Origin: Dictyoglomus sp. NZ13-RE01
GTDB taxonomy: Bacteria > Dictyoglomota > Dictyoglomia > Dictyoglomales > Dictyoglomaceae
Length of the DNA stretch: 64,000 nt
Direction of reading: 5' to 3'
Assembly: GCA_002878375.1 (NCBI GenBank)
Contig: NIRF01000001.1
Location: 248,001-312,000 of the forward strand
Positions 6,692 to 11,718 of the stretch are shown piece by piece (position 1 is the first letter of the stretch; the number at the start of each line of letters is the position of its first letter). The notes beneath the pieces are model-generated. The model had not been told where the DNA came from. It worked only from the letters and a program-made list of their open reading frames with translations, and did no database searches. Made by a program: the position numbers and the translations under genes.

Positions 6692-6707
6692 TGTGATGTA
6701 TATCACA
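6692..6707. promoter_or_regulatory. CRP/FNR-type palindrome upstream of hsp20-lon
   Basis: TGTGATGTATATCACA is a perfect match to the TGTGA-N6-TCACA consensus of CRP-family regulators (arms TGTGAT/ATCACA). Its centre is about 60 bases before the predicted hsp20 start site, the classical class I activator position. A degenerate second copy, TGTGA-N6-ACACA, lies at 6715-6730 over the -35 box. No CRP-family gene is in the window. Confidence 0.55.
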
Positions 6708-6722
6708 CTTTCTTTGTGATTT

Positions 6723-6752
6723 TAGACACATGATAGCTTTAAATGGTATAAT
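6723..6752 (+). promoter_or_regulatory. hsp20-lon promoter
   Basis: TAGACA at 6723-6728, an 18-base spacer and TATAAT at 6747-6752; predicted start near 6759. No CIRCE element is visible. Confidence 0.6.
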
Positions 6753-6791
6753 TAGTTTAAAAGGAAATTAAGTTTAGTAATGGAGGCAAAA

Positions 6792-7193
6792 ATGAAGAAA
6801 GATGAAATCTTTTTAAAAGAAAGTGACTATTTCCGCAGTCAAATATACAGATTGGTTGATTGTTTTTATAGGCAAGGTAGTAGGGTACCTTTTCAATGGG
6901 GTGCCTGGATACCAGCAGTAGATGTGTATGAAACAGAGGATAAAATAGTAGTCTTAGTAGATATTGCAGGTGTAAGCAAAGATAACATTGATCTGACCTT
7001 TCAACAAAATAAGTTGATTATAAAGGGAACAAGACCTGCAAAAGTATATTCAGACCCAGAAATATATTATCAAATGGAGATAAATTTTGGACCTTTTGAG
7101 AGAGTTATAGAACTACCATGTCCAGTGGATGGAGAAAATGCAGAAGCAATTTACAAAGAAGGTTTCTTAGAGATCATTCTTCCCAAAAAGTAA
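6792..7193 (+). CDS. Hsp20/alpha-crystallin small heat-shock protein
   Basis: An ATP-independent chaperone that binds unfolding proteins. The 133-residue protein has a short N-terminus, the alpha-crystallin domain from about [20 protein letters not shown] through [14 protein letters not shown], and the end strand [15 protein letters not shown] with the GFLEI motif. The start at 6792 is chosen over the ATG at 6780 because GGAGG at 6782-6786 lies five bases before it; the upstream ATG has no ribosome site. It is first in the hsp20-lon-baeRF transcription unit. Confidence 0.93.
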
Positions 7194-7210
7194 AGAAAGG
7201 AGGAAAGTTA

Positions 7211-9595
7211 ATGGACGAACAAGAATTAAAAAATCTACCCGAAATTCCAGAGATATTGCCTATTTTGCCTCTAAGGGAAACTGTTGTCTACCCCCAAATG
7301 TTAATTCCGTTAGTTGTTGGAAGGGAGAAAAGCCTAAAGCTTATTGAGGATGCTGCAGCAGGGAATAAAATTATAGGACTTTGCATGCAGAAAACTCCTG
7401 TGGAAGAGCCCACTTACGATGATATACATAGAATAGGAACAGCTGGAATAATAGTAAGAATGTTAAGATTTCCAGACAATACTATAAGACTATTTGTCCA
7501 AGGTTTACAAAGAATAAAAATAGAAGAGTTTATACAGAGTGAGCCATACTTCAAAGCTAAAGTCTCTCTTATAAAAGAAACCTACGAAAAAACTATAGAA
7601 ATAGAGGGAGCAATGAGAAATATTATCTCCCTCTTCCAAAGAATGGCATCCCTAATACCTCAATTCCCAGAAGAGCTTTTAATTAATGCAATGAACATTC
7701 AGGATCCAGGAAGATTAGCAGACTTCATTGCCTTTAATCTAAACATTAATGTAAATGAAAAGCAAGAAATTTTAGAAACCATAGATATTAAGGAGAGACT
7801 TCAAAAAGTTACCTTCTATCTCAATAGAGAAATAGAAATATTAGAAATAGCAAATAAAATTCAAAATGATGTTAAGAACGAGATAGAGAAAAGCCAAAGA
7901 GAATACTTCTTAAGACAACAAATGAAAGCTATACAAAAGGAGTTAGGAGAAATTGATCCTCGTGAAATGGAGGTAAATGAACTAAGACAAAAATTACAAG
8001 AGGCAAAACTACCTCCAGAAGCAATGAAAGAGGCAGAAAGGGAATTAGAAAGACTTGCCCAGATGCCCCCAGGATCTGCCGAATACACTGTAACAAGAAC
8101 TTACTTGGATTGGATGATTTCTCTACCTTGGAGTAAGAGTACTGTAGATAATTTAGATATACAAAAGGCGAAAGAAGTATTGGATGAAGATCATTATGAT
8201 TTAGAAAAAGTAAAGGAAAGAATATTAGAATACTTAGCGGTGAGAAAATTAAAAGAGGATATGAAAGGACCTATTCTTTGCTTTGTAGGACCCCCAGGAG
8301 TTGGTAAAACATCCTTAGGTAAATCTATAGCAAGAGCCTTAGGAAGAAAATTTGTAAGGATATCCTTAGGTGGAATAAGAGATGAGGCAGAGATAAGAGG
8401 TCATAGAAGAACATACGTTGGAGCATTACCAGGTAGAATAATACAAGGAATGAGAAAGGCGGAGTCAAACAATCCTGTATTTATGCTTGATGAAATTGAC
8501 AAAATTGGTACAGACTTTAGAGGAGATCCTGCAGCAGCATTATTAGAAGTTTTAGATCCCGAACAGAATAATAGCTTTGTAGATAATTACTTAGGAGTTC
8601 CCTTTGATCTTTCTAAGGTAATGTTTATAGCAACTGCAAATGTGCTTTATACAATTCCTCCAGCTCTTTTAGATAGAATGGAGATCTTGGAGCTTCCAGG
8701 ATATACTGAAATAGAAAAGATTGGAATTGCAAAGGGATTCCTTATCCCAAGACAATTAAAAGAACATGGTCTAAGTGAGGAACAACTTAGTTTTGAGGAA
8801 GATGCTATTAGAAAGATTATAAGAGAATATACAAGAGAAGCAGGGGTAAGAAACTTAGAGAGAGAAATAGCATCAATATGTAGAAAGGTTGCAAAAGGAT
8901 ATGCAGAGGGGAGTATTACTGAGAAAGTAGTTATTACTGAAGAGGAGATTCCTAAATATTTAGGTGTCCCAAAATATACATATGGCATGAAGGGAGAAAA
9001 AGACGAAATAGGAGTTGCTACAGGTTTAGCATGGACTGAAGCTGGAGGAGACATCTTATTTGTAGAAGCATTGGTAGTTGAAGGAAGAGGTAATTTAATA
9101 TTGACAGGTAAATTAGGAGAAGTAATGCAGGAGTCTGCCAAAGCGGCACTTTCTTATGTTAGATCAAAGGCAAAAGAGTTAAATATCAACTACGAAATCT
9201 TTGAAAAGTCAGATATACATATTCATGTGCCATCTGGTGCCATACCTAAGGATGGTCCATCCGCAGGAGTAACCATTGCAACTGCCCTTGCATCTGCTCT
9301 TACTAAAAGACCTGTCAAGAAAGATATTGGAATGACTGGTGAGATCACATTGAGAGGTAAAGTTCTTCCTGTAGGAGGAATTAGGGAGAAAGTTTTAGCA
9401 GCACATAGAGCAGGACTTTCCGCAGTAATTATGCCTAAAGAAAATGAGAAGGACTTAGAAGAGATTCCAGAAATAGTAAGGAAAGAATTGAAGTTTTACT
9501 TTGTAGAGCATGCGGACGAGGTTTTAAATCTTGCCCTTTTGGAGGTGAAGGCGAGTGATACTGAAAGAAAGCCTGAGGAGGTTAGGGGATCTTAA
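7211..9595 (+). CDS. lon: ATP-dependent protease Lon
   Basis: Lon degrades misfolded and regulatory proteins in the cytoplasm. The 794-residue protein has the usual order: N-terminal substrate domain ([13 protein letters not shown]), coiled-coil linker, AAA+ module with Walker [10 protein letters not shown] (from residue 360) and Walker [11 protein letters not shown], and the protease domain with catalytic serine 684 in PKDGPSAG and the lysine in [14 protein letters not shown]. The start at 7211 follows GGAGG; the reading frame extends upstream, but only over hsp20. It is followed with overlap by the baeRF gene. Confidence 0.97.
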
Positions 9596-10658
9596 CTTTA
9601 GCCCCTACCTCATAACTTCCCTTTATCTAAATATTTCACCTTTGGATTATCCGAAAGGTGAGTATAGGTTGATCTGGAAAAATTTTCAGAAGGAGATTGA
9701 AAAATACAACACAGAAGATAGAGATATAAAAATGTCTCTTCTTGGTGATGCGGAAAGAATATCACAATTTCTTGATCAGGAAATTACAACTCATGCAAAT
9801 ACTTTAGTATTTTTCTCCTGTAGTAGCAAAGATTGGTTTGAAGTTTATCCTTTGTATCCAAAATTAAAGTCAAAATTAGTTATAGATAAGGATCCATATA
9901 CAAAACCTATTGCAAGGCTTCTTGCCTCCCAAAACCCATATTTAATATTACTTGTATCAAAAGATAAGGCACGAATATTTACATACTATTTAGGAGAGTT
10001 AAGCGAGGAAGAAGATGTAAGCACAGAAATTCCAAAAAAACACAAACAGGGAGGATGGTCTGCAGCTACATGGCAGAGATGGCATGAAACTCATGTTACA
10101 TGGCATCTTAAAGATGTTGTTGAACATACTTTAAAAATTGTTGACGATAAAAAAATAATTCTTGGAGGAACTCTTCCTACTATAGCAGAATTTAAAGATC
10201 TATTACCCAAATCACTATCAGAAAAGGTAGTTGGGGAATTTACTGTAGAATTTGAAGCACCAATAAAAGAGGTATTAGAAAAAGCGGAAGAATTTATAGA
10301 TAATTATGAGAAAAGAACAACTGAAGAATTAGTAGAAAGAATATATACTAATACGAAGAAAGGGAAAGAATCAACTTTTGGTTTAGACGAAGTCGCATAT
10401 ATGGTTTATCAAAATAGAGTACATACTTTATTAGTAAGCGAAAATTTTGAGAAACCTGGTTATCAATGCCCTAAATGTTCCTTTATAAGCTCATACTTAG
10501 AAATTTGTTCATTTTGCAATGTTCCTATGGAAAAAAGAGCGGACATAGTAGATGAAACCATAGAGATGGCTATCAACAAAGATGCAAGATTAATATTCAT
10601 AAAGGATCAAGAGTTAGGAAAGAAAATTGAAAATATAGGTGCTTTATTGAGGTTTTAA
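9555..10658 (+). CDS. Bacterial eRF1-like protein (baeRF family) with zinc ribbon
   Basis: A 367-residue protein resembling the central and C-terminal domains of eRF1/Vms1-type factors. The loop [15 protein letters not shown] (GGW at residues 166-168) aligns by eye with the eRF1 loop around GGQSA; the peptidyl-tRNA-hydrolysing Gln is Trp here. A zinc ribbon follows at C305xxC308 and C318xxC321, then the helix [15 protein letters not shown]. It starts at GTG 9555 behind GGAGGTG and overlaps the end of lon by 41 bases, so it is co-expressed with lon. The family has been proposed to act in ribosome rescue; a role here is inference. Confidence 0.72.
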
Positions 10659-10686
10659 AAAAAGGGGGCAAAAATGCCCCCTTTTT

Positions 10687-10688
<2 letters not shown>
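10657..10688. terminator. Bidirectional terminator between baeRF and gapA
   Basis: A7, GGGGGCA (10664-10670), AAAA loop, TGCCCCC (10675-10681), T7. The hairpin is flanked by A and T runs, so it should terminate transcription from both strands; it serves the lon unit on plus and gapA on minus. Confidence 0.92.

Positions 10689-11718
<1,030 letters not shown>

Follow-up and report, generated by a model that had tools for sequence, protein, structure and literature searches.

Balon has neither NIKS nor GGQ. In cold shock or stationary phase it sits in the A site of ribosomes, both vacant and translating, where one of its loops lies around A2602 and the peptidyl-transferase centre stays inert; Balon genes belong to stress operons that also encode Hsp20, DnaK/J and RaiA (PMC10901736). 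In human eRF1, hydrolysis was abolished by GGQ mutations, a result of Frolova 1999 that is cited by both PMC10901736 and PMC6514570. The second Gln of baeRF family 10 matches the GGxSQ place, regarded as catalytic in VLRF1 by Burroughs and Aravind, who considered family 10 possibly active owing to its conserved Gln (PMC6514570). Apart from the Balon paper and that of Burroughs and Aravind, the literature searched yielded nothing on a Dictyoglomus member or on family 10.

We analyzed a window of 64,000 nucleotides of Dictyoglomus DNA, in which a baeRF gene follows hsp20 and lon. What is new here is a variant of baeRF family 10 lacking the loop Gln (Q-less) in a phylum-wide, lon-linked unit, a finding that is in part already explained. 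The encoded protein shares with Balon, MSMEG_1130 and Rv2629 three eRF1-like domains over the full length, the absence of NIKS and GGQ, stress neighbors including Hsp20, and the best fold match. However, the identity to these factors is approximately 16%, and the protein scores far below the NCBIfam equivalog cut-offs. Its HK-GG loop, with W, is still of the aRF1 type; the protein has no HP dipeptide and carries a four-Cys ribbon where Balon has an EF-Tu-binding beta-hairpin in a domain-3 insertion. The Pfam match, the GGW loop, and the three domains with ribbon are shared with baeRF family 10 (PF18854; PMC6514570), whereas the Dictyoglomota proteins are without Gln at GGW[SA]Q and sit in an hsp20-lon operon. 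The fold, domain order and ribbon cysteines are those of aRF1/eRF1, and the solved archaeal aRF1 loop, VPGKHKMGGQSQRRYERI, lines up with VPGWHKQGGWSQARYQRHI of family 10 and with the Dictyoglomota loop; in contrast to aRF1/eRF1, the protein has W for the catalytic Q, lacks NIKS and stays below the TIGR03676 cut-off, and RF1/RF2 are present rather than replaced. Vms1/VLRF1 proteins have eRF1 domain 2 in common with it (weak acVLRF1 match, 2.4e-9), but it is without the Gln of GGxSQ or GxuQ, its domain 3 is of the Pelota type, and its layout differs from that of bacterial and archaeal VLRF1 (PMC6514570).

The baeRF gene and its operon

The baeRF ORF is a real gene and not a chance match, as it matches Pfam families and, below the cut-off, an NCBIfam model and has homologues in seven of seven Dictyoglomota and in many other phyla. 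Its coordinates, strand and length (Table 1) are those given in the preliminary description, which had also correctly reported a 41-base overlap with lon behind the gene's own GGAGGTG. The start site and a matching Shine–Dalgarno sequence recurred in all seven Dictyoglomota genomes, with an overlap with lon of 35 or 41 bases.

Table 1. Features of the hsp20-lon-baeRF locus in window coordinates
Feature	Position	Strand	Description
CRP/FNR-type palindrome	6692..6707	+	exact, TGTGATGTATATCACA; upstream of operon
Second palindrome copy	6715..6730	+	imperfect (one mismatch); overlaps -35
Predicted sigma-70-like promoter	6723..6752	+	TAGACA-18-TATAAT, extended -10; 11/12 consensus matches; 5' of hsp20
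hsp20	6792..7193	+	start placed at ATG behind GGAGG 6782-6786; mechanical ORF from 6780
lon protease	7211..9595	+	likely start Met32 of mechanical ORF 7118-9595
GGAGGTG Shine–Dalgarno sequence	9541..9547	+	inside lon, 7 nt 5' of baeRF GTG
baeRF family 10 protein	9555..10658	+	three domains; 367 aa, GTG start at 9555, stop at 10658
Domain 1	9555..9890	+	residues 1-112; eRF1 N-domain-like (Z ~11-12), no NIKS
Domain 2	9891..10292	+	residues 113-246; eRF1_2/baeRF family 10
Tip loop and start of next helix	10035..10106	+	residues 161-184
Domain 3	10293..10655	+	residues 247-367; eRF1_3/Pelota-like
Four-Cys ribbon	10467..10517	+	C305xxC308...C318xxC321, in domain 3
Predicted intrinsic terminator	10656..10689	+	15-pair stem, directly 3' of baeRF, closes operon

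An hsp20-lon-baeRF unit had been proposed earlier, and it is backed by a predicted promoter 5' of hsp20 and a predicted terminator 3' of baeRF, both of which are consensus matches. Given this shared promoter, the overlap of 35–41 bases and the terminator after the third gene, hsp20, lon and baeRF look like a single transcription unit. CRP/FNR-type palindromes with at most one mismatch occurred twice in the 64 kb, both at the hsp20 promoter, a number no higher than expected by chance (45 of 100 shuffles reached two). GTGA-N6-TCAC was kept in all six readable Dictyoglomota upstream regions, the window's own included, and a stricter palindrome occurred at four places in the genome (the hsp20 promoter and three others) versus none in the reversed control. 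The tandem palindromes and the retention of GTGA-N6-TCAC suggest a regulator acting at the hsp20 promoter. The genome contains a single cNMP-binding-domain gene, which lies approximately 1.6 kb from rqcH (NFACT) on the opposite strand, facing rqcH (L206, L081; G000 C8:14140-17294).

Family, fold and tip loop of the baeRF protein

The assignment to baeRF was confirmed by HMM search: Pfam baeRF_family10 matched with an E-value of 2.4e-33 and 115.8 bits, above the curated cut-off of 27.1, over positions 1-140 of 143. Besides acVLRF1, the other Pfam matches were eRF1_2 (9.4e-7) and eRF1_3 (2.5e-5, just under the cut-off). The NCBIfam aRF1 model TIGR03676 (6.7e-25) reached 87.7 bits, below its cut-off of 234.7; it nevertheless outscored all three NCBIfam hibernation-factor models, which gave 62.7, 49.9 and 40.9 bits against equivalog cut-offs of 330, 480 and 320, respectively. 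The CxxC/CxxC ribbon of the preliminary description was recovered as well, and its four cysteines are invariant across Dictyoglomota.

The AlphaFold2 model, built on a 26-sequence alignment, predicted three domains with a pLDDT of 89.2 and a pTM of 0.77, and its least certain part was the tip loop (pLDDT 59–76). The top fold match was MSMEG_1130, a ribosome-bound Balon homologue (Z 30.2, rmsd 2.9, 359 of 367 residues), which also ranked first when a profile of the family was compared with the PDB (1.6e-30), and Foldseek matched Balon-type hibernation factors at approximately 1e-23. Further matches were P. urativorans Balon (Z 23), Rv2629 (Z 20) and eRF1/aRF1 (Z ~14–20), the last of which supplies the structural match to eRF1 domain 2 that had been set as a test. 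Pelota matched partially, mostly over domains 2–3 (Z ~12–13). Neither NIKS nor GGQ was present in any of the seven Dictyoglomota proteins; the exact dipeptide HP, after the motif that Balon-type factors have at the decoding centre, was likewise absent from all seven.

The tip loop (residues 162–176) aligned without gaps to the GGQSA region of eRF1 in phmmer, and GGWSA thereby places a W where eRF1 has its catalytic Q. Residues 158–184 were invariant at 19 of 27 positions versus 35% overall in the seven proteins, with a hypergeometric p of 1e-4 for this chosen stretch; a scan for the best-conserved 21-residue window of the protein was borderline (p = 0.06). The Dictyoglomota loop reads GGW[SE][AT] in all seven proteins (GGWSA, GGWEA or GGWET) and has Gln at neither position. 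The preliminary description had emphasized GGW in place of GGQ, and the alignment of W with the eRF1 catalytic Q upholds this; GGW is, however, common in a branch of family 10, so that a unique Q-to-W mutation was rejected. The informative change is the Gln that is missing from GGW[SA]Q rather than GGW itself.

Family 10 members from Chloroflexota, Eisenbacteria, Stahlbacteria, WOR-3, Nitrospinota and Tectomicrobia carry HKQGGW[SA]QxR[YF]QRH, and those from Nitrospirota carry KRGGWF[SA]LS..., which lacks the Gln and has three inserted residues in the loop. Judging from the aRF1 loop VPGKHKMGGQSQRRYERI, the second Gln of family 10 corresponds to a Gln already present in aRF1 and not to the catalytic one. 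Of the 53 GGW members surveyed, 26 had Gln at GGW[SA]Q. A tree of these 53 members was built with a masked loop, and on it the state of the Gln switched five times or more (5–6 or more); the tree is unrooted and its backbone weak in places. Dictyoglomota formed one clade (100/100), next to the Q-less Nitrospirota clade (92/92). Given its absence from all seven Dictyoglomota proteins and its five or more changes of state on the tree, the Gln is probably dispensable for whatever role the GGW branch shares. Members assigned by score are repeatedly without the loop Gln; we therefore did not take it as defining family 10, and we refer to the Dictyoglomota protein as a Q-less variant. Five loci from the search of the Chloroflexota group (L114, L122, L125, L128 and L129) also have GGW without the loop Gln (GGWSA, GGWAA or GGWGA), apparently independently of Dictyoglomota.

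Linkage to lon and neighborhoods of relatives

Each of the seven Dictyoglomota genomes had one family match, 51–70% identical to the window's protein; no paralogue was found in the same genome at the search sensitivity used, and no homologues were found in viral contigs. The lon gene lay directly upstream of baeRF in all seven, with lon orthologues 84–90% identical, and hsp20 preceded lon in each locus long enough to show that region. The baeRF gene evolves faster than its neighbors, with approximately 52% identity between genera versus approximately 85% for lon and 92% for gap. The conserved lon linkage expected by the preliminary description thus held within Dictyoglomota; outside the phylum it did not, as no lon adjacency was found among the family 10 loci read with flanks, and proteostasis and stress neighbors recurred instead. 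Weak lon matches in L040, L177, L193 and L194 (1e-11 to 2e-5) were left out of the count as being short or probably cross-matches to AAA+ proteins.

Outside Dictyoglomota, adjoining genes on the same strand encoded DnaJ (L047), a Clp ATPase (L054, L069), HPF-CSD (L078), Usp (L075) or an Hsp20 cluster (L063, a Chloroflexi locus whose protein bears the Gln); a sigma-type factor adjoined the gene at L064, with DnaK before it, and at L066, with a BON protein before it. Of the 40 new loci, 13 (or 8 of the 27 clusters formed at 50% identity) had a gene for Hsp20, DnaK, DnaJ or Clp on the same strand no more than 1.5 kb away, and one of 20 control stretches of 8.4 kb from the same genomes contained such a gene anywhere (Fisher p 0.015), a modest test given the few controls and the partial non-independence of the 40 loci. 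The first loci were excluded from this count because the reference proteins came partly from them. A chaperone, protease or stress setting recurs for family 10, both with and without the loop Gln. Among the Q-bearing genes, L065, L068 and L072 (Eisenbacteria and others) directly follow the gene for PCMT, a protein-repair enzyme. The Q-less Nitrospirota genes with the three-residue insertion (L048, L057 and L059) are preceded by a gene for an AI-2E family transporter.

Candidate functions at the ribosome

We consider it most likely that the baeRF protein is expressed under stress and acts in the A site without hydrolysis, in the manner of Balon. To this reading we give somewhat better than even weight on the basis of the fold, the absence of NIKS and GGQ, and the stress-type setting that it has in common with Balon. 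By score it is no Balon equivalog, and by motif no release factor. Its tip is without the residue needed for protein release, and the protein, instead of ending translation, would thus probably park during stress in ribosomes that are resting or have stalled. The sub-threshold hibernation-factor scores, which the aRF1 model exceeds, the four-Cys ribbon at the place of the EF-Tu-binding hairpin, the missing HP dipeptide, the unlinked HPF gene and the low pLDDT of the loop speak against this reading, and the margin of the predicted fold match over eRF1 speaks for shape and not for activity. The genome has a single HPF (S30AE) gene, approximately 180 kb from the operon, and a linkage of baeRF to HPF in this genome was accordingly rejected.

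The preliminary description had instead placed the protein with proposed release or rescue factors. With Gln at neither loop position, this is the less likely reading; the structure matched most closely is that of a hibernation factor. Such a factor would hydrolyze peptidyl-tRNA on stalled ribosomes through Q165 (before GG), Q174 (in WQRW), a His or a backbone-positioned water. No part of the protein is better conserved than the loop, Q165 and Q174 do not vary within the phylum and are frequent in family 10, the operon is of a proteostasis type, and the judgment of Burroughs and Aravind on family 10 (PMC6514570) points the same way. The genome also encodes RqcH, tmRNA and two RF-1-domain proteins; these two match RF1 and RF2 in size and are the only ones of their kind, and no ArfB was found among them. 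However, Gln is missing at both GGQ and GGxSQ, and GGQ mutations abolish hydrolysis in human eRF1; Q174 falls in a predicted helix starting at residue 170 and aligns with a non-catalytic eRF1 position. With RqcH, tmRNA and RF1/RF2 present, canonical termination and two rescue systems are available independently of the baeRF protein, so that rescue is already covered, and we consider peptidyl-tRNA hydrolysis unlikely. Even less likely, in our assessment, is a Pelota-like splitting or no-go factor that would enter stalled ribosomes, promote dissociation of the subunits and hand the 50S-peptidyl-tRNA over to RqcH, the product then being removed by Lon. The protein is Q-less, as is Pelota, its domain 3 has a Pelota fold match, RqcH is present and lon shares the operon; yet the fold is far nearer to Balon and eRF1 (Z 30 and 20) than to Pelota (13), and Lon is a general protease.

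The position next to lon could also be a neutral relic, an inherited gene order in a small phylum that says nothing about function. Among the loci read, the lon adjacency is confined to Dictyoglomota, and gap, leuS and the upstream genes are likewise syntenic at these loci, but the shared promoter, the 35–41-base overlap and the terminator mark the genes as one unit, and chaperone and protease neighbors recur in unrelated lineages. We regard this as the least probable of the alternatives considered here; it limits the functional claim on Lon and is compatible with an A-site role.

For the Balon-like A-site factor, we infer every step at the ribosome. The tRNA-shaped eRF1 relative would enter the A site and leave the nascent chain unreleased. 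Domain 1 would lie near the decoding centre without reading stop codons, the conserved HKQGGW...WQRWHE loop would contact 23S rRNA by the peptidyl-transferase centre and keep this site inert, and domain 3 may contact an EF-Tu-type GTPase. The ribosome would be paused and protected during stress, and the co-expressed Hsp20 and Lon would handle unfolded protein. The protein would thus act as Balon does while retaining two aRF1-like parts, the zinc-ribbon cysteines and the HK-GG loop. In a bolder form, which we hold to be quite improbable, the Gln-free factor would hold heat-stalled ribosomes and keep or present unreleased chains for Hsp20 and Lon, forming a ribosome-to-protease stress circuit in Dictyoglomota in which the loss of the loop Gln marks a switch from a possible hydrolase to a holding-only factor.

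Bacterial eRF1 relatives may include both hibernation factors and factors that release peptides. Its loop Gln had set family 10 apart as a possibly catalytic group; within a single branch, the presence of this Gln changes repeatedly. The natural pairs of proteins with and without the Gln suit a direct biochemical test, and, as the source organisms are thermophiles, the Dictyoglomota protein is likely to be thermostable and useful for structure work.
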